42,812 nucleotides of DNA, taken from positions 1-42,812 of the forward strand of contig QHVM01000104.1 in NCBI GenBank assembly GCA_003223555.1. Reading direction: 5' to 3'. Both the position numbers and the translations under genes were made by a program. The DNA comes from Acidobacteriota bacterium (GTDB taxonomy: Bacteria > Acidobacteriota > Vicinamibacteria > Fen-336). This document shows, piece by piece, positions 34,890-42,812 of this stretch. Positions within the stretch are counted from its first letter, which is position 1, and every line of letters begins with the position of its first letter. Below the pieces are notes generated by a model. It worked only from the letters and a program-made list of their open reading frames with translations, was not told where the DNA came from and ran no database searches.

Positions 34890-36302
34890 CTATTCCCCAT
34901 CCTTCGCTCGCTCCTCGGCCGGGGGAAAGGCGGCGAGGAGGGCGTCGACGACCGCCTCCATGCGCGCGCCGCGCGAGCCCTTGACGAGCACCGCATCGCC
35001 CGGCCGGACGAGCCGGGGGGCCGCCCCGGCCGCGGCGGACGAGTCGGGGAAGACCGCGAGCGCGTCGCCCTTCATCCCCGCCCGCCGCGCGCCGGCCACG
35101 AAGTGCGCGGCGAGGGGGCCGGCGGCGAAGAGGGCCTGCACCCCGGAGGCGATGCGCTCCCCCGTCCGCCGATGCAGCTCGGGTCCGGCCGGGCCCAGCT
35201 CGAGCATGTCGCCGAGGAAGGCCACCCGGCGCCCCGGCGCAGCGAGGCCCAGGGCGGTCACGGCCGCCTCGACCGCGGCGGGGTTCGAGTTGTAGCTGTC
35301 GTCGAGGAGCGTGATGCCCGCACCGAGGGCCAGGACCTGCCCGCGGTGGCGGGCGGCCTTCATCTCCAGCGCGGCCCTGGCGATCGCCTCCGGGCCGATG
35401 CCGAGGTGGTGGGCGACCGCCGAGGCGGCCAGGAAGTTCGAGAGGAAGTGCGGCCCGGCCAGGGGAAGCGCCACCGCCACGCCGCGGCCGCCGAGGCGCA
35501 GGTCGAAGCGCATCCCGTGGACGGTGCCCCGCCAGTTCTCGGCCGAGACCTCGTAGCGGCGGTCGCGGCCGAACCAGAGGACCTTCCCGCGGTGGGCCTC
35601 CCCGATCTTCCGCACGAGGGGATCGTCGGCGTTGAGCACCGCCACGCCGCCGGGGGCGAGACCCTCCAGCACCTCGGCCTTGGCGGCCGCGATCGCCTCC
35701 ACCGAATCGAAGAACTCGAGGTGCACCGGCGCGACCATCGTGATGACGGCCACGTCCGGACGCGCGAGCGTGGACAGCGCGCGCAGCTCGCCGGCGGCCG
35801 ACATCCCCAGCTCCAGCACGGCCGCGGTGTGCTCGGAGGCCAGCCGGAGGAGCGTCAACGGCAGGCCGTACCGGTTGTTCAGGTTGCCTTCGGTCTTGAG
35901 CACCGGGCCCCTCGTGGCGAGGAGCGCCGCCGTCATCTCCTTGGTGGTGGTCTTTCCCGCCGAGCCCGTGACGGCCACGACCGGGACGTCGGCGGAGGCC
36001 CGTACGTGGTGGGCCAGGTCGGCCAGGGCCTTGGTGGTGTCCTCCACCCGGACGAGGCTCAATCCCCCCGGCGCGGCGACCTCGCGGTGGACGACGGCGG
36101 CGGCGGCCCCGGCCGCGGCGGCGGCGGCGAGGAAGTCGTGGCCGTCGAAGCGCGGGCCGGCGATGGCGAAGAACACCTCGCCCGGCCGGATCGTCCGCGA
36201 ATCGATGGAGACGCCTTCCAGCTCACCGCGGTCCGGGCCGGCCAGCATCTGCCCTCCGGTCACGGTGGCCACGTCCTCCAGGCTCAGCGCGCGCACGGCC
36301 AT
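34890..36302 (-). CDS. murF: UDP-MurNAc-tripeptide--D-alanyl-D-alanine ligase MurF
   Basis: 470 residues from ATG 36302; GTG 36317, overlapping the murE stop (GTGA), is an equally likely start five codons earlier. Adds D-Ala-D-Ala to complete the pentapeptide. [19 protein letters not shown] is the N-terminal murF/murE domain; [12 protein letters not shown] (111-122) is the ATP loop; [46 protein letters not shown] and [12 protein letters not shown] are typical. No ddl gene accompanies it here. Confidence 0.97.
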
Positions 36303-36313
36303 GGCGACCGCCC

Positions 36314-37849
36314 TCACGCCTTCCCGCCGCGCAGCGGGGGATCGGGGGGGGACGGAGAGCCCCCCCCGCCCGAGAGCGAGCGGGGATCCATTCCGCGCGA
36401 GCGAAGGATGAGGTCGCGGGCCACCTGACGGTCGTCGAAGGGGACCGTCCGGTCGCGCAGGACCTGGTAGGTCTCGTGGCCCTTGCCCGCGATCACGACT
36501 GCGTCGCCCGGGCCGGCCATCTCCAGGGCCCGGGAGATCGCCTCCCGGCGGTCCACGATCGCGTGTCGCTCCGCGCGCCGGGACCCGTTCATCCCGCGCT
36601 GGATCTCCTCCAGGATGGCCTCCGGCGGCTCGCTGCGCGGGTTGTCGGAGGTCACGATCACGACGTCCGACAGCCGCGAGGCCACCGCCCCCATCAGCGG
36701 CCGCTTGGTGCGGTCGCGGTCGCCTCCGCACCCGAACACGGTGATGAGCCGGCGCGGCTTCAGCTCCCGCAGCGTCTCCAGCAGGTTCTTGAGGGCGTCG
36801 TCCGTGTGGGCGTAGTCCACGATGACCGCGAAGTCCTGCCCGGCGCTCACCCGCTCCAGCCGGCCCGGCACGCCGGTCATGGTGACGAGGCCGGCCAGGG
36901 CGGTGGCCGGCTCGAGGCCGAGGGCCAGCGCGGCGGTGAGGCCGGCCAGGAAGTTCTCGACGTTGAAGCGACCGATGAGCGGCGTCTCGACCGCCAGCTC
37001 TCCGGCCGGCGTGCGGGCCCGGAAGCGCGTCCCCCTCAGCGAGAGCGTGATGCCGGAGGCGGTGACGTCGGCCTTGCGCTGGATGCCGTATGTCCACACC
37101 CGTCCCCGCGAGACGGCGGCGAGGTCGGCCGCGCGGTCGTCGTCGGCGTTGATCACCGCGTGGCCGCCCTCCCGCAGGTAGGTGTCGAAGAGCCGACGCT
37201 TGGCGGCGAAGTAGCGCTCCATGTCGCCGTGGAAGTCGAGGTGGTCGCGGGTGAGGTTGGTGAAGACCGCGACCTCGAACGCGCAGCCGTGGACGCGCTT
37301 GAGGTCCAGCGAGTGCGAGGACACCTCCATCACCACGTCGGTGCAGCCCTCGTCGGCCATCTGCCGGAAGAGCGCCTGCAGATCGGAGGACTCCGGCGTC
37401 GTCCGCGAGGCCTCCAGCAGCCGCCCGCCGACGCGGTACTGGACCGTGCCGATGAGACCCACCGCGTGTCCGGCCGCCCGCAGCGCGGCGTCGATGAGGT
37501 AGGTGGTGGTGGTCTTGCCGTTGGTGCCGGTCACGCCGACGAGGCGCAGCGAGCGGGCGGGGTCGCCGAGGGCGGCGGCCGAGAGCAGCGCCAGGGCCTC
37601 GCGCGCGTCGGGCACCTGTACCCAGGCGCCCGCCCCGTCGGGCGGCTGCTCGGAGACCACGGCCACCGCTCCTCGCTTGCGCGCCGCGTCGACGAAGCGG
37701 TTGCCGTCGGCGACGGCGCCGCGGATGGCCACGAAGAGCGACCCCGGCGAGAGGTGCCGGGAGTCGTACGTGACCTCGGTCACCGGAAGCGCGGGATCGG
37801 CCTCCAGCCGGGCGTGCGGAACGCGCCGCACCAGCTCGGCGAGGGTCAC
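36314..37849 (-). CDS. murE: UDP-MurNAc-L-Ala-D-Glu--meso-DAP ligase MurE
   Basis: 511 residues from GTG 37849, overlapping the ftsI stop by 4 nt. An upstream in-frame GTG at 37909 would overlap far into ftsI and is less likely. VTYDSRHLSPGSLFVAIRG is the UDP-binding domain, VTGTNGKTTTTY (106-117) the ATP loop, EVSSHSLDLKRV and NLTRDHLDFH the central motifs, and DNPR (402-405) marks the meso-diaminopimelate-adding enzyme. After FDDRQVARDLILRS the last 30 residues are Gly/Pro/Ser-rich (GGGGSPSPPDPPLRGGKA) because the 75-nt repeat at 36329-36403 is read through, giving an atypical C-terminal tail. Confidence 0.96.
   Translation of the reverse strand: MTLAELVRRVPHARLEADPALPVTEVTYDSRHLSPGSLFVAIRGAVADGNRFVDAARKRGAVAVVSEQPPDGAGAWVQVPDAREALALLSAAALGDPARSLRLVGVTGTNGKTTTTYLIDAALRAAGHAVGLIGTVQYRVGGRLLEASRTTPESSDLQALFRQMADEGCTDVVMEVSSHSLDLKRVHGCAFEVAVFTNLTRDHLDFHGDMERYFAAKRRLFDTYLREGGHAVINADDDRAADLAAVSRGRVWTYGIQRKADVTASGITLSLRGTRFRARTPAGELAVETPLIGRFNVENFLAGLTAALALGLEPATALAGLVTMTGVPGRLERVSAGQDFAVIVDYAHTDDALKNLLETLRELKPRRLITVFGCGGDRDRTKRPLMGAVASRLSDVVIVTSDNPRSEPPEAILEEIQRGMNGSRRAERHAIVDRREAISRALEMAGPGDAVVIAGKGHETYQVLRDRTVPFDDRQVARDLILRSRGMDPRSLSGGGGSPSPPDPPLRGGKA
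36329..36403. repeat. 75-nt GC-rich repeat at the 3' end of murE
   Basis: Second copy of the element seen in pgeF at 15711-15785, same length and orientation, about 80 % identical by eye. It contains a run of eight G and a run of eight C that can pair. It is read in a different frame from the pgeF copy yet contains no stop, and it ends 12 nt before the murE stop. Confidence 0.7.
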
Positions 37850-39873
37850 GGAGTCTGCCCGCTCGGCGTCTCCGCCCGGCCGGCGGCCCGGCTCAGGCTC
37901 AGGACGCACGTGGTCACTGCTTCAAGCTCCGTGCCAGGCGCGGGGCTCTGCGCCACGACGCGGCCCGAGCCCTTCAGCTCGACGATGAGGCCCTGGCGCG
38001 CGGCCAGCGTCGCCGCCTCGCGGGCCGACAGGCCCCGCAGCTCCGGCATGCGGGCGGGCCCGCCGGCGCCGGCCGGAGAGGCCGAGGCCGGCCCCGCATG
38101 GAAAGAGGCGGGCCCGGCGGGGGCCTCCGGGCGATAGGCCGACATCCTCAGCATGCGGTCCGCGTCTTCCGGGGGAACCGCCAGCCGGCCCAGCGCCTGC
38201 TCCGCGATGCGGGCGAAGACGGGCGCGGCCACGTCGCCCCCTTCGTTGTGCGGACCGCGCGGGCTGTCGAGCGAGACGAGGATCACCAGGACCGGGCGCG
38301 CGGCCGGCACGAAGCCCACGAAGGAGGCCACGTGATCGACCATGGAATAGCGGCCCGAGGCGTCCACCTTCTGCGCGGTGCCCGTCTTGCCGGCCACCGT
38401 GTACCCCGTGACGGCCGCCCGCCATCCGGTGCCGCGCCGGACGACGCCCTTCAGCAGGTCGGTGAGGGCGTCCACGGCGTCCGCCTCCAGCACCCGGCGC
38501 ACGGCCACCGGCCGCTCCGCCTTCACCACCCGGCCCCCGGCGTCCTCCACCTGCCTCACGATCAGCGGCTTCATCAAGTACCCGCCGTTGGCCACCGCCC
38601 CCATCGCGGTCGCGAGCTGCAGGGCGGTGACGCCGACCTCCTGTCCGAACGACAGCGAGGCCAGCGACAGCGCGCTCCAGCGGGAGGGCGGCCGGAGCAG
38701 CCCGCTCGATTCGCCGGGCAGCTCGATGCCGGTCGCGGCGCCGAAGCCGAAGTCCCGGATGTGGCGGTTGAGGTTCTCGCGGCCGAGCCGCTGGGCGACG
38801 CGGATCATGCCGATGTCGCTCGAGTGGGCGATCACGTCACGGAACGGGAGCTGGTGGAAGACCGCGTGGTCGTTCACGCGCACGCCGGCGATCTCGATCG
38901 CGCCGTCGCCGCAGTCCACCGTCTCGTCGGGGTCGACCACCTTCTCCTGGAGCGCGGCGGCGGCGGTGAAGACCTTGAACACGCTGCCCGGCTCGTAGGC
39001 GTCGGCCACCGCCCGGTTCCGCCAGTGCGAGCTGGGGTAGGCGTTGAAGCGGTTCGGGTTGAATGTGGGACGAGACGCCATGGCCAGGACCTCGCCGGTG
39101 CGGGGATCCATCACGATCGCCACCCCGGAGATCGAGCCCGTCTCGACGACCGCGCGATCGAGCTCCTTCTCCGCCGCGTACTGGATCGCCTCGTCCAGCG
39201 TGAGGACCACGGAGTGCCCCTCGGTGGACGGCTTCTCGGTCGTCTCCACGGGGCGCCGCCGCGCGTCGATGCGGACGCTGACCTTGGCCGCCCGCCCGCG
39301 GATGAGGTCCTCGAAGGCGTACTCGACGCCGCTCATGCCGGTGTTGTCGAGGCCGACGTAGCCCAGCGCCTGCGCGGCCAGCTCGCGCTTCGGGTAGTAG
39401 CGGCGGGTCTCGGTCAGGAACCCGATGCCGTCGAGCTGCAGGTCGCGCACGTCCCGGGCCGCGCGGGGATCCACCTTGCGGCGGACCCACACGAAGGCCC
39501 GGCTGCGCTGGAGCCCGGCGGCCAGCTCGCGGCGGGCGGCGGCGTCGAGACCGAGGGCGCGGGCGAGCGCGGCGGCGGTGTCGTCGGGCTCGTGGACCTC
39601 CTGGGGCACGGCATAGATGCTCTCGGCGTCGACGGAGACGGCGAGCGGCCGGCCGGCCCGGTCGAGGATGGGCCCCCGCCGCGGATCGAGGTTGATCATG
39701 CGCTCGCTCTGCCGGGCGGCCTGCCGCTCGAAGGACTCCCGGCCCAGGACCTGGACCTGGACGAGCCGCACGACGACCACCAGCGCCCACAGGCACACGG
39801 AGAGGGCGACCAGCATGAGGCGCAGCCGGATCAGCCGGTCGCGCACCGTGGGGGGGGAGGCCGGCGCCAGCAT
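37846..39873 (-). CDS. ftsI: FtsI-type penicillin-binding protein with PASTA domain
   Basis: 675 residues, ATG 39873 overlapping the ftsL TGA by 1 nt. One membrane helix (about 20-42), the PBP dimer domain (RRGPILDRAGRPLAVSVDAE), then the transpeptidase with S297-V-F-K300 (YEPGSVFKVF), the second motif as SSD (351-353) where SxN is usual, and KTGTA (496-500). A linker of Ala/Pro/Gly leads to a C-terminal PASTA domain (about 610-665, MPELRGLSAREAATLAARQG ... VVAQSPAPGTELE). It cross-links septal peptidoglycan with FtsW. A PASTA domain on the division PBP is common outside the gamma-proteobacteria. Confidence 0.96.
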   Translation of the reverse strand: MLAPASPPTVRDRLIRLRLMLVALSVCLWALVVVVRLVQVQVLGRESFERQAARQSERMINLDPRRGPILDRAGRPLAVSVDAESIYAVPQEVHEPDDTAAALARALGLDAAARRELAAGLQRSRAFVWVRRKVDPRAARDVRDLQLDGIGFLTETRRYYPKRELAAQALGYVGLDNTGMSGVEYAFEDLIRGRAAKVSVRIDARRRPVETTEKPSTEGHSVVLTLDEAIQYAAEKELDRAVVETGSISGVAIVMDPRTGEVLAMASRPTFNPNRFNAYPSSHWRNRAVADAYEPGSVFKVFTAAAALQEKVVDPDETVDCGDGAIEIAGVRVNDHAVFHQLPFRDVIAHSSDIGMIRVAQRLGRENLNRHIRDFGFGAATGIELPGESSGLLRPPSRWSALSLASLSFGQEVGVTALQLATAMGAVANGGYLMKPLIVRQVEDAGGRVVKAERPVAVRRVLEADAVDALTDLLKGVVRRGTGWRAAVTGYTVAGKTGTAQKVDASGRYSMVDHVASFVGFVPAARPVLVILVSLDSPRGPHNEGGDVAAPVFARIAEQALGRLAVPPEDADRMLRMSAYRPEAPAGPASFHAGPASASPAGAGGPARMPELRGLSAREAATLAARQGLIVELKGSGRVVAQSPAPGTELEAVTTCVLSLSRAAGRAETPSGQTP

Positions 39874-40292
39874 CAGTTCCTCCCCGCCGGTGCGCGCTCG
39901 GAGCCGCTGGCCAGCCGCGAGCCGGCCGGGACCTCGCGCGGCCTCTCCACCACCACCAGCTTCTGGGGGGCGGGGGTGGCGAGGCCGAGGTCGCGCCGCG
40001 CGATCGTCTCCACGCGGTGGAGGTTCTCCAGCGCCGCCTTCTCGAGGCGCAGCTTGCGGTTCTCCTCCAGCAGGCGCTCGCGTTCCTTGGACATCTGCTC
40101 GCGGGCCAGGCTCGTCTGGCGGATCTCCAGGCTCGGCCAGGCGTAGAGCACGAGGCCGCCCACGAGGGCCGCGGCCAGCAGCAGCAGCAGCCAGAGGTCG
40201 CGGCTCGAGCGCGGGTCGACCTCCCGCACGACGTGCGAGTTGTCGATCGCCTTGGGGAGGAGGCCGGTCGCGTCGAGGGCGTCGTCCCTCAC
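39873..40292 (-). CDS. ftsL: FtsL-like divisome protein
   Basis: 139 residues from GTG 40292, overlapping the rsmH stop (GTGA). A short cytoplasmic part, one membrane helix at about 33-51 (LWLLLLLAAALVGGLVLYAW), then a heptad-rich coiled coil (about 60-100, RERLLEENRKLRLEKAALEN), ending RVETIARRDLGLATPAPQKL. This resembles the FtsL/DivIC layout, with sequence too short and variable for a firm family score. Its position between rsmH and ftsI is decisive. The last 25 residues look disordered. Confidence 0.9.
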   Translation of the reverse strand: MRDDALDATGLLPKAIDNSHVVREVDPRSSRDLWLLLLLAAALVGGLVLYAWPSLEIRQTSLAREQMSKERERLLEENRKLRLEKAALENLHRVETIARRDLGLATPAPQKLVVVERPREVPAGSRLASGSERAPAGRN

Positions 40293-41168: not shown

Positions 41169-41612
41169 TCAAATGCCGAACTCCGAGAGGACCTTTCCGT
41201 CCTCGTCGGTGAAGGGCTCCTTCTTGAACAGCCGCTCCTGCAACCGCTTCAGGTTCCAGACCGCGAGGTGGTTCTGGAGCCCGAGCACGCTCACCTCGCC
41301 GGCCATGGCCGCGCTCTCCCGCAGCATCTGGGGAAGCACGACGCGCCCCTGCCGGTCCATGCTCACGGTCTGGCCGAAGAAGTTGACGCGGTCGAGGAAG
41401 CGGGTCTTCGAGGGATTGGTGGAGGGGACCTCGGCGAGGCGGCGCTCGATCTCGAGCCACACCGCCATCGGGTAGAGGCGAACGTACTCACCGGTCACGC
41501 TGGTGACGAACAGCTCCGCTCCATACTGCGACTCCACGAGCGAGCGGAAGCCGTTCGGGATCTTCAAGCGTCCCTTGTCGTCGACGCGCGCCGGATGGTT
41601 GCCGCGAAGCAT
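41169..41612 (-). CDS. mraZ: MraZ transcriptional regulator, proximal copy
   Basis: 147 residues from ATG 41612 behind GGGGAG. MraZ is a ring-forming DNA-binding protein with two SpoVT/AbrB-type swapped domains. Domain 1 has HPARVDDKGRLKIPNGFR and domain 2 has VSMDRQGRVVLPQMLRESA, each with the D-x-K/Q-G-R motif. It regulates the dcw operon from repeats near the promoter. Here a promoter and three 10-bp-spaced boxes lie 100 nt upstream. It is paralogous to the mraZ copy further upstream. Confidence 0.95.
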   Translation of the reverse strand: MLRGNHPARVDDKGRLKIPNGFRSLVESQYGAELFVTSVTGEYVRLYPMAVWLEIERRLAEVPSTNPSKTRFLDRVNFFGQTVSMDRQGRVVLPQMLRESAAMAGEVSVLGLQNHLAVWNLKRLQERLFKKEPFTDEDGKVLSEFGI

Positions 41613-41713
41613 CGCTCCCCGAGTCTGTGGCGGCCGAGCGACGGGGGGACGAGCCGCGTTCGTCCCGAGGCCGGGCCTTCCGAAGTGGGATCGCTCCCGC
41701 GCGAGGAGCTTCT

Positions 41714-41739
41714 ACCCACTTTTTTCCACAAAATTCCAC
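41714..41739 (-). promoter_or_regulatory. Three MraZ-type boxes at the mraZ-rsmH promoter
   Basis: On the minus strand GTGGAA (41734-41739), GTGGAA (41724-41729) and GTGGGT (41714-41719) are exactly 10 bp apart with 4-bp spacers. Known MraZ sites are TGGGN repeats with the same 10-bp period. The boxes start at the predicted transcription start, so bound MraZ would block initiation or escape. Confidence 0.75.
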
Positions 41740-41743
41740 CTGG

Positions 41744-41772
41744 AGTCTAGAAGGGGCCTCGCGGGGTGTCAA
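41744..41772 (-). promoter_or_regulatory. Sigma70 promoter of the dcw cluster
   Basis: TTGACA (41767-41772) and TAGACT (41744-41749) on the minus strand, 17 bp spacer. The predicted start is about 41737, giving a leader of about 125 nt before ATG 41612. It is the best promoter-like sequence in the cluster. Confidence 0.75.
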
Positions 41773-41784
41773 GGGGAAAATGAA

Positions 41785-42258
41785 CTAGCTCCTGGGTTTC
41801 CCCTGTGGACGCAGGCCTGCCGCGGGAGCCCAGTCGAGGCCGAGCCCGGCGTCGTCGAGCAGACGCTCCGAGTCGCGAAGAAACGAGGCCCAGCGCTCGG
41901 GGGCCCAGACCTCGAAGCGGTTCACGACCCCGATCACGGTCGCCTCACCGCCGAGCCCGGCGGCCGCCCGCTGCGTGGAGGGAACGAGGATCCGTCCTTG
42001 CCGGTCCAGCTCGCAGTCGACCGCGCGGCTCGCCAGCAGCCGCGCCAGGCCCTTGGTCGGCCTGCTGAACGCGGGCAGCGCGACGAGCTGCGCCGCGAGC
42101 TTCTCCCACTCCGTGGGCGGGTAGACGGCCAGGCACTCGTCGAGGACCGTCATGACGACGCCGTGCGCGCCAGCCTCCGCCAGCCGACGGCGGAACGGGG
42201 CGGGGACGGGCAGGCGTCCCTTGGCGTCGAGCCGGTAGCGATAAGTCCCTTTGAACAC
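41785..42258 (-). CDS. MraZ paralogue, distal copy
   Basis: 157 residues from GTG 42258; no clear ribosome site is visible. Both SpoVT/AbrB half-domains are present: FKGTYRYRLDAKGRLPVPAP and CELDRQGRILVPSTQRAAAG. The end is NRFEVWAPERWASFLRDSER plus a 25-residue tail. It is clearly MraZ, but quite different from the proximal copy. The gene stops 172 nt before the proximal mraZ, with the dcw promoter between, and has its own set of three 10-bp-spaced boxes upstream. Two mraZ genes in tandem are unusual; they could regulate each other or form mixed rings. Confidence 0.9.
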   Translation of the reverse strand: MFKGTYRYRLDAKGRLPVPAPFRRRLAEAGAHGVVMTVLDECLAVYPPTEWEKLAAQLVALPAFSRPTKGLARLLASRAVDCELDRQGRILVPSTQRAAAGLGGEATVIGVVNRFEVWAPERWASFLRDSERLLDDAGLGLDWAPAAGLRPQGKPRS

Positions 42259-42273
42259 AGGGGTCTGCGACTA

Positions 42274-42299
42274 TTCCACACTTTTCCCCACATTTCCAC
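42274..42299 (-). promoter_or_regulatory. Three MraZ-type boxes upstream of the distal mraZ
   Basis: GTGGAA (42294-42299), GGGGAA (42284-42289) and GTGGAA (42274-42279) on the minus strand, again exactly 10 bp apart. They end 16 nt before the GTG start. A clear -10/-35 pair is not visible next to them; TTGCTC just upstream is a possible -35. Confidence 0.65.
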
Positions 42300-42304
42300 A
42301 TTGA

Positions 42305-42520
42305 GCAAGGGGGCGCTAGCGGCGCGCCCCCTTGGACCCCGCTCGCGTCTTCCGCGGCGTCGAAGTGAATTCGCCGCCGCTCATCTGGCGGGTCCGCTTC
42401 GCGGCCCCGGGGCGAATGAATCGCGCTCAGCTCGCAGCCTGTGGCGACGGGCCCAGTGCTAGCGGCGGCCCCCCTTGGACCCCGCACGCTGCGAGTTCGC
42501 CTCCGCGCGCAGTCTTGGCT
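42305..42520. repeat. GC-rich dispersed repeat region upstream of the distal mraZ
   Basis: Two units begin GCTAGCGGCGCGCCCCCTTG (near 42315) and GCTAGCGGCGGCCCCCCTTG (near 42459), each running into TTGGACCCCGC. GCGCTCAGCTCGCAG near 42423-42437 matches the end of the repeat at 13212-13285. No gene is seen in 42259-42553. A 12-bp perfect palindrome CTCTTTAAAGAG lies at 42534-42545 next to the HD-GYP stop. Confidence 0.55.
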
Positions 42521-42553
42521 GAAGGCTGTTGCTCTCTTTAAAGAGTCGTGGGG

Positions 42554-42812
42554 CTAGTCGAGGTGCTGGACCTTGTCGAAGAAAAGATCGACCAGGCGGG
42601 CGTCCCACATGCCGATGCTGGCTTCGTCCCGCATGATCTGGAAGGCCTTGTCGCGAGCAAGCGCGCCGCGGTAGGAGCGGACGGAGGTGATCGCGTCGTA
42701 GACGTCGGCGATCGTCAGGCAGCGCAGCGACACCGGGACCTGGTCTCCCTGCAGCTTGTCGGGATAGCCCCGGCCGTCGAGCCGCTCGTGGTGACCCCGG
42801 ATGAGGGTCAGC
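42554..42812 (-). CDS. HD-GYP domain protein, N-terminal part outside window
   Basis: The last 85 residues of a minus-strand gene whose start lies beyond the right edge. IRGHHERLDGRGYPDKLQGD is the HHExxxGxGYP hallmark of HD-GYP phosphodiesterases, followed by PVSLRCLTIADVYDAITSVR, SYRGALARDKAFQIM and a C-terminal helix WDARLVDLFFDKVQHLD. HD-GYP proteins degrade cyclic di-GMP; the usual N-terminal receiver or sensor domain is not in view. The gene points towards the dcw cluster but is separated from it by a repeat-filled gap. Confidence 0.88.
   Translation of the reverse strand, partial: LTLIRGHHERLDGRGYPDKLQGDQVPVSLRCLTIADVYDAITSVRSYRGALARDKAFQIMRDEASIGMWDARLVDLFFDKVQHLD

Follow-up and report, generated by a model that had tools for sequence, protein, structure and literature searches.

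The division and cell-wall (dcw) cluster of this member of the Acidobacteriota is headed by two mraZ genes of different ancestry, each preceded by its own array of three boxes at 10-bp steps, an arrangement that is conserved throughout its order (Fen-336, class Vicinamibacteria). We consider it fairly probable, at roughly 60%, that a native MraZ-B and an extra MraZ-A, acting at two operators, impose two nested negative feedbacks on the division genes. The locus occupies positions 42258-34890 on the minus strand of the window (the whole stretch of 42,812 nucleotides that was analysed), in the order mraZ-A, mraZ-B, rsmH, ftsL, a gene for an ftsI-type transpeptidase and two Mur ligase genes. Apart from one additional leading gene, this is the start of a normal cluster:

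41785-42258, minus strand: mraZ-A, the distal and first gene; GTG start, 157 aa, PF02381
41169-41612, minus strand: mraZ-B, rsmH-proximal; ATG start, 147 aa, PF02381
40289-41167, minus strand: rsmH (mraW); PF01795, E 6.3e-95
39873-40292, minus strand: ftsL; PF04999, E 1.1e-10
37846-39873, minus strand: ftsI-type penicillin-binding protein (transpeptidase) with a C-terminal PASTA domain
36314-37909, minus strand: Mur ligase, probably murE from gene order
34890-36338, minus strand: Mur ligase, probably murF from gene order
42272-42301, minus strand: operator A, boxes ATGTGGAAAT, GTGGGGAAAA and GTGTGGAATA at 10-bp steps
42270-42298, minus strand: candidate promoter of mraZ-A, predicted as TGGAAA (42298-42293), 17 nt and AATAGT (42275-42270), overlapping operator A
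41710-41739, minus strand: operator B, boxes GTGGAATTTT, GTGGAAAAAA and GTGGGTAGAA at 10-bp steps
41744-41772, minus strand: promoter of mraZ-B and the division operon, TTGACA-N17-TAGACT

The initial annotation had described two diverged mraZ genes ahead of rsmH, and both open reading frames are indeed complete and directly precede rsmH; their products are 32% identical, i.e. two thirds of the residues differ. Further upstream on the same strand, the end of an HD-domain (HD_5) gene (42554-42812) is cut by the window edge. A 32-nt direct repeat (42315-42346 and 42458-42489, 91% identical, 143 bp apart) lies just upstream of operator A, and its 16-nt core, CCCCCTTGGACCCCGC, has no other occurrence in the genome.

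Both proteins belong to the MraZ family by their half domains, DxxxR motifs, MraZ fold and position at the head of the dcw cluster before rsmH. Against the Pfam MraZ model (PF02381, family cut-off 23 bits) MraZ-A scores 107.5 bits and MraZ-B 69.8 bits, each over two half-domain stretches, and no further match above this cut-off was found elsewhere in the genome. With the stricter NCBIfam model TIGR00242 (cut-off 98.35), MraZ-A passes (119.6) and MraZ-B fails (73.4). On these model scores MraZ-B is the more divergent copy, and MraZ-A, the extra copy, is of the mainstream MraZ type; the latter also matches PDB entry 1n0e (E 4.9e-14) and is closer to the MraZ of Listeria (41% identity) than to MraZ-B. 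The DxxxR motif in each half is invariant in 11 A sequences and 17 B-type sequences. The predicted structures of MraZ-A and MraZ-B (pLDDT 83 and 91, respectively) find their best PDB matches in the MraZ proteins of M. pneumoniae and M. genitalium (E values of roughly 1e-9 to 1e-10), and the only strong structural matches of either model are MraZ structures. Both models also match the MraZ-promoter complexes 9r4j and 9sz7, DNA complexes of this family having been solved only recently.

Related genomes bear out the doubling. Of 17 genomes of the order, 16 contain the locus, and each of these has A-B-rsmH on a single contig; the 17th, 63% complete, gave no mraZ match. In the other Vicinamibacteria examined, rsmH is preceded by one mraZ, of the B type. 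The initial annotation had regarded restriction of the second mraZ to one assembly, or lack of conservation of the boxes in relatives, as grounds for abandoning its proposal; the second gene extends well beyond one assembly, and relatives have retained the boxes ahead of each of the two mraZ. Among 396 sampled Acidobacteriota, a second A-B-rsmH tandem occurs only in lineage f31 (G080 = L069, G092 = L068), in whose class the one other family examined has a single mraZ. The f31 genomes are small (2.2-2.3 Mb). Additional MraZ-like matches in four genomes (G115, G161, G243 and G305) were discarded as tandems, the copies being on separate contigs. That the named genomes involved are metagenome-assembled would fit an assembly or binning artefact, but the same gene order recurs, each time within one contig, in 16 genomes of the order and in two of another lineage, and the two genes differ at two thirds of their residues, which together make such an origin of the doubling wholly improbable.

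The ancestry of the two genes was assessed by a maximum-likelihood tree of 120 MraZ sequences, with topology tests on 147 columns; sampling beyond Acidobacteriota was thin, consisting of records from a plasmid collection and one sample from the phylum of a Planctomycetota-labelled MAG. MraZ-B lies inside the Acidobacteriota clade (100/100), and on this placement is the native Acidobacteriota MraZ. MraZ-A falls outside this clade, amid sequences from Bacillota, Actinomycetota and Planctomycetota; the A copy of lineage f31 is placed likewise. The earlier description of the genes as tandem paralogues thus holds as far as tandem is concerned, but not in the sense of a recent duplication. Adjacency and membership in one family are what a tandem duplication within this lineage would produce; however, MraZ-A stands outside the whole Acidobacteriota clade and nearer to Listeria MraZ than to MraZ-B, and a clade uniting A and B is rejected (lnL 65 lower, p-AU 0.0036), so that the tree and the AU test rule out a recent event and leave this origin very hard to credit. 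In the same tests, a clade of A with the A copy of f31 has a likelihood equal to that of the free tree and is not rejected, and neither is a clade of A with all Acidobacteriota MraZ (p-AU 0.4). MraZ-A may accordingly have been gained horizontally, or may go back to a very old duplication whose second copy was widely lost, the p-AU of 0.4 leaving room for the latter; transfer needs fewer events. The deep placement of MraZ-A is soft, since it rests on 147 columns and long branches. Lineage f31 may have gained its second mraZ independently of this order. In the Planctomycetota-labelled MAG, an Acidobacteriota-type mraZ with an interrupted frame (L063:425-1030, 49% identity to B) lies beside an rsmH fragment, possibly through mis-binning or transfer. 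Whatever their origins, both mraZ genes are under purifying selection, with dN lower than dS in every pair compared (dN/dS about 0.06-0.30 for A and 0.04-0.25 for B, NG86).

The MraZ of Mollicutes binds (AAAGTGKN3)3, where K is G or T, and binds even a differently spaced site (PMC5282649). GTGK triples at a 10-bp step are present in 9 of 16 A regions and 13 of 16 B regions, as well as in 27/54 single-mraZ Acidobacteriota and 10/13 other bacteria, compared to a shuffle mean of 0.03 or less; at other steps from 6 to 14, no such triples were found in any of the four sets. GTGK arrays also precede mraZ in E. coli, where the region has the same 10-bp GTGG array, and in Bacillus, Legionella and Burkholderia. 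Operator B, which begins at position 41739, has GTGG in all three boxes in the main family, with TTGG as the middle box in family f2, and such an array is also found in single-mraZ relatives. Operator A in its true register reads ATGT / GTGG / GTGT in the window (42301-42272, box 1 being ATGT) and GTGT / GTGG / GTGT in most relatives, the first G sometimes being replaced by A or T. Its conservation falls away upstream of the boxes: across 12 genomes of the family, pairwise identity is 0.87-0.92 in the operator A boxes (0.92 in box 1), and about 0.25-0.3 immediately upstream of box 1.

The initial annotation had listed three GTGGAA boxes in 10-bp phase for each gene. This is correct for the proximal set, but the distal GTGGAA words sit at 0, 8 and 20, i.e. 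at spacings of 8 and 12 bp, and the 10-bp period is regained only when the boxes are read as GTGK from 2 bp further upstream. Because the distal register differs in this way, the two sets, once called nearly the same, are better described as similar: operators A and B differ consistently in boxes 1 and 3. This difference between GTGT and GTGG is within the published tolerance for K and need not matter. When the 5.39-Mb genome is scanned with a pattern based on both arrays, operators A and B are the only two matches. No third site, and hence no sign of a larger MraZ regulon, was found, although weaker sites may be missed by a pattern so derived.

The promoter of mraZ-B is well defined. TTGACA-N17-TAGACT agrees with the consensus at 10/12 positions (shuffle mean 0.1 sites), and no second site of this kind lies within 41600-42600; the boxes of operator B begin 4 nt past the -10 element of this promoter and so cover the predicted start site, in line with the earlier proposal of a single promoter that places the proximal boxes at the start of transcription. 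The mean score of this promoter over 15 genomes is 9.9/12 (shuffled 5.4), and in relatives operator B lies 4-6 nt past TTGACA-N17/18-TAGACT or a near variant. Promoter and boxes follow each other in the same way in the class's single-mraZ relatives, so this control layout of mraZ-B is ancestral.

The situation upstream of mraZ-A is different. No promoter of the B type was found upstream of its boxes, where the mean best score (5.3/12) equals that of shuffled sequences (5.3), and a conserved sigma-70 promoter upstream of operator A was dismissed, its scores being at shuffle level. The sole conserved promoter candidate there lies over the boxes themselves, with a conserved TGGAAA and a -10 that reads AANANT. 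The distance from box 1 to the mraZ-A start codon is fixed at 43 nt in most of the main family and is 39-40 nt in others. The conserved boxes, the AANANT element and the fixed distance together suggest that mraZ-A is transcribed from TGGAAA-N17-AANANT overlapping operator A, as a nearly leaderless message with the start codon 11 nt past the -10. The score of this candidate, 7-8/12, is weak by itself; its apparent conservation could also have a different cause, since it overlaps boxes that are themselves strongly conserved.

In E. coli and M. genitalium, MraZ acts as a repressor of the operon to which mraZ belongs; loss of mraZ in E. coli has no obvious phenotype (PMC8475190). The autorepression systems of E. 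coli, Mycoplasma genitalium and M. gallisepticum resemble the present one in protein family, fold and DxxxR motifs, in GTGK boxes at 10-bp steps and in position before rsmH, and mraZ-B shares their layout of -35 and -10 elements followed by boxes. The known cases, however, have one mraZ and one operator, unlike the two genes of different ancestry and two operator layouts found here. In other Vicinamibacteria and Acidobacteriota with a single mraZ, the dcw operon has a gene, promoter and GTGG boxes of the mraZ-B type, but lacks mraZ-A and operator A. The closest parallel is the f31 tandem, in which an outlying and then a native mraZ precede rsmH, each with a box array; it differs in having a TTGACA promoter before two GTGG boxes at both genes. 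No mention of two mraZ genes was found in the literature searched, which covered a minority of subscription journals. The two-mraZ dcw arrangement is real and conserved and, as far as this literature shows, undescribed, though built wholly of a known regulator family and a known operator type.

We propose that two repressors of the MraZ family, different in descent, are encoded in the dcw operon of this order, each array being, by analogy with the characterized systems, a putative site of repression. MraZ-B is the native regulator, and its promoter, followed by three GTGG boxes that cover the predicted start site, is the ancestral one. Retention of this promoter with its boxes makes it most likely that MraZ-B stops RNA polymerase at the start site and thereby represses its own gene together with rsmH-ftsL-ftsI-mur. 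The extra MraZ-A would act upstream with its own three-box operator; as the only conserved promoter candidate lies inside these boxes, MraZ bound there would exclude RNA polymerase directly from the promoter of a nearly leaderless message. Putative read-through from mraZ-A into mraZ-B, combined with two self-limiting operators, would result in the two nested feedbacks.

Cross-control between MraZ-A and MraZ-B, as first suggested for this locus, is plausible and compatible with the sequences. In its full form, both proteins would recognise both arrays interchangeably and jointly set one level of repression: both arrays fit the published GTGK consensus, MraZ-A and MraZ-B both keep their two DxxxR motifs, and the pattern built from both arrays has no other site in the genome. 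Yet the fourth position of boxes 1 and 3 in operator A is consistently T among the genomes compared, as opposed to GTGG in operator B, and the proteins are only 32% identical, so that we judge complete interchangeability possible but somewhat short of an even chance. The conserved T hints at some binding preference, which together with the separate ancestry of the proteins would also suit an insulated pair, with MraZ-A reading operator A only and controlling mainly itself and the distal promoter, and MraZ-B reading operator B only. Mollicutes MraZ, however, accepts G or T at this position and binds even a differently spaced site (PMC5282649), and such tolerance favours at least some cross-binding; strict insulation is rather doubtful. 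It is tempting to go further and regard the locus as a conserved two-regulator dcw switch, in which MraZ proteins of separate origin and structurally different operators, one over a promoter with a leaderless message and the other over a start site, are insulated or combined in mixed rings, but we hold this only tentatively, as the less likely outcome.

MraZ is very widespread, and that a whole order should keep two MraZ proteins of different descent, with a conserved operator for each, suggests that this control matters there. The locus is also a natural setting in which to compare operator classes, GTGT/GTGG/GTGT versus three GTGG boxes, and promoter overlap versus start-site block. If the two-regulator switch were true, the division genes of these bacteria would be subject to two separately tunable negative feedbacks.
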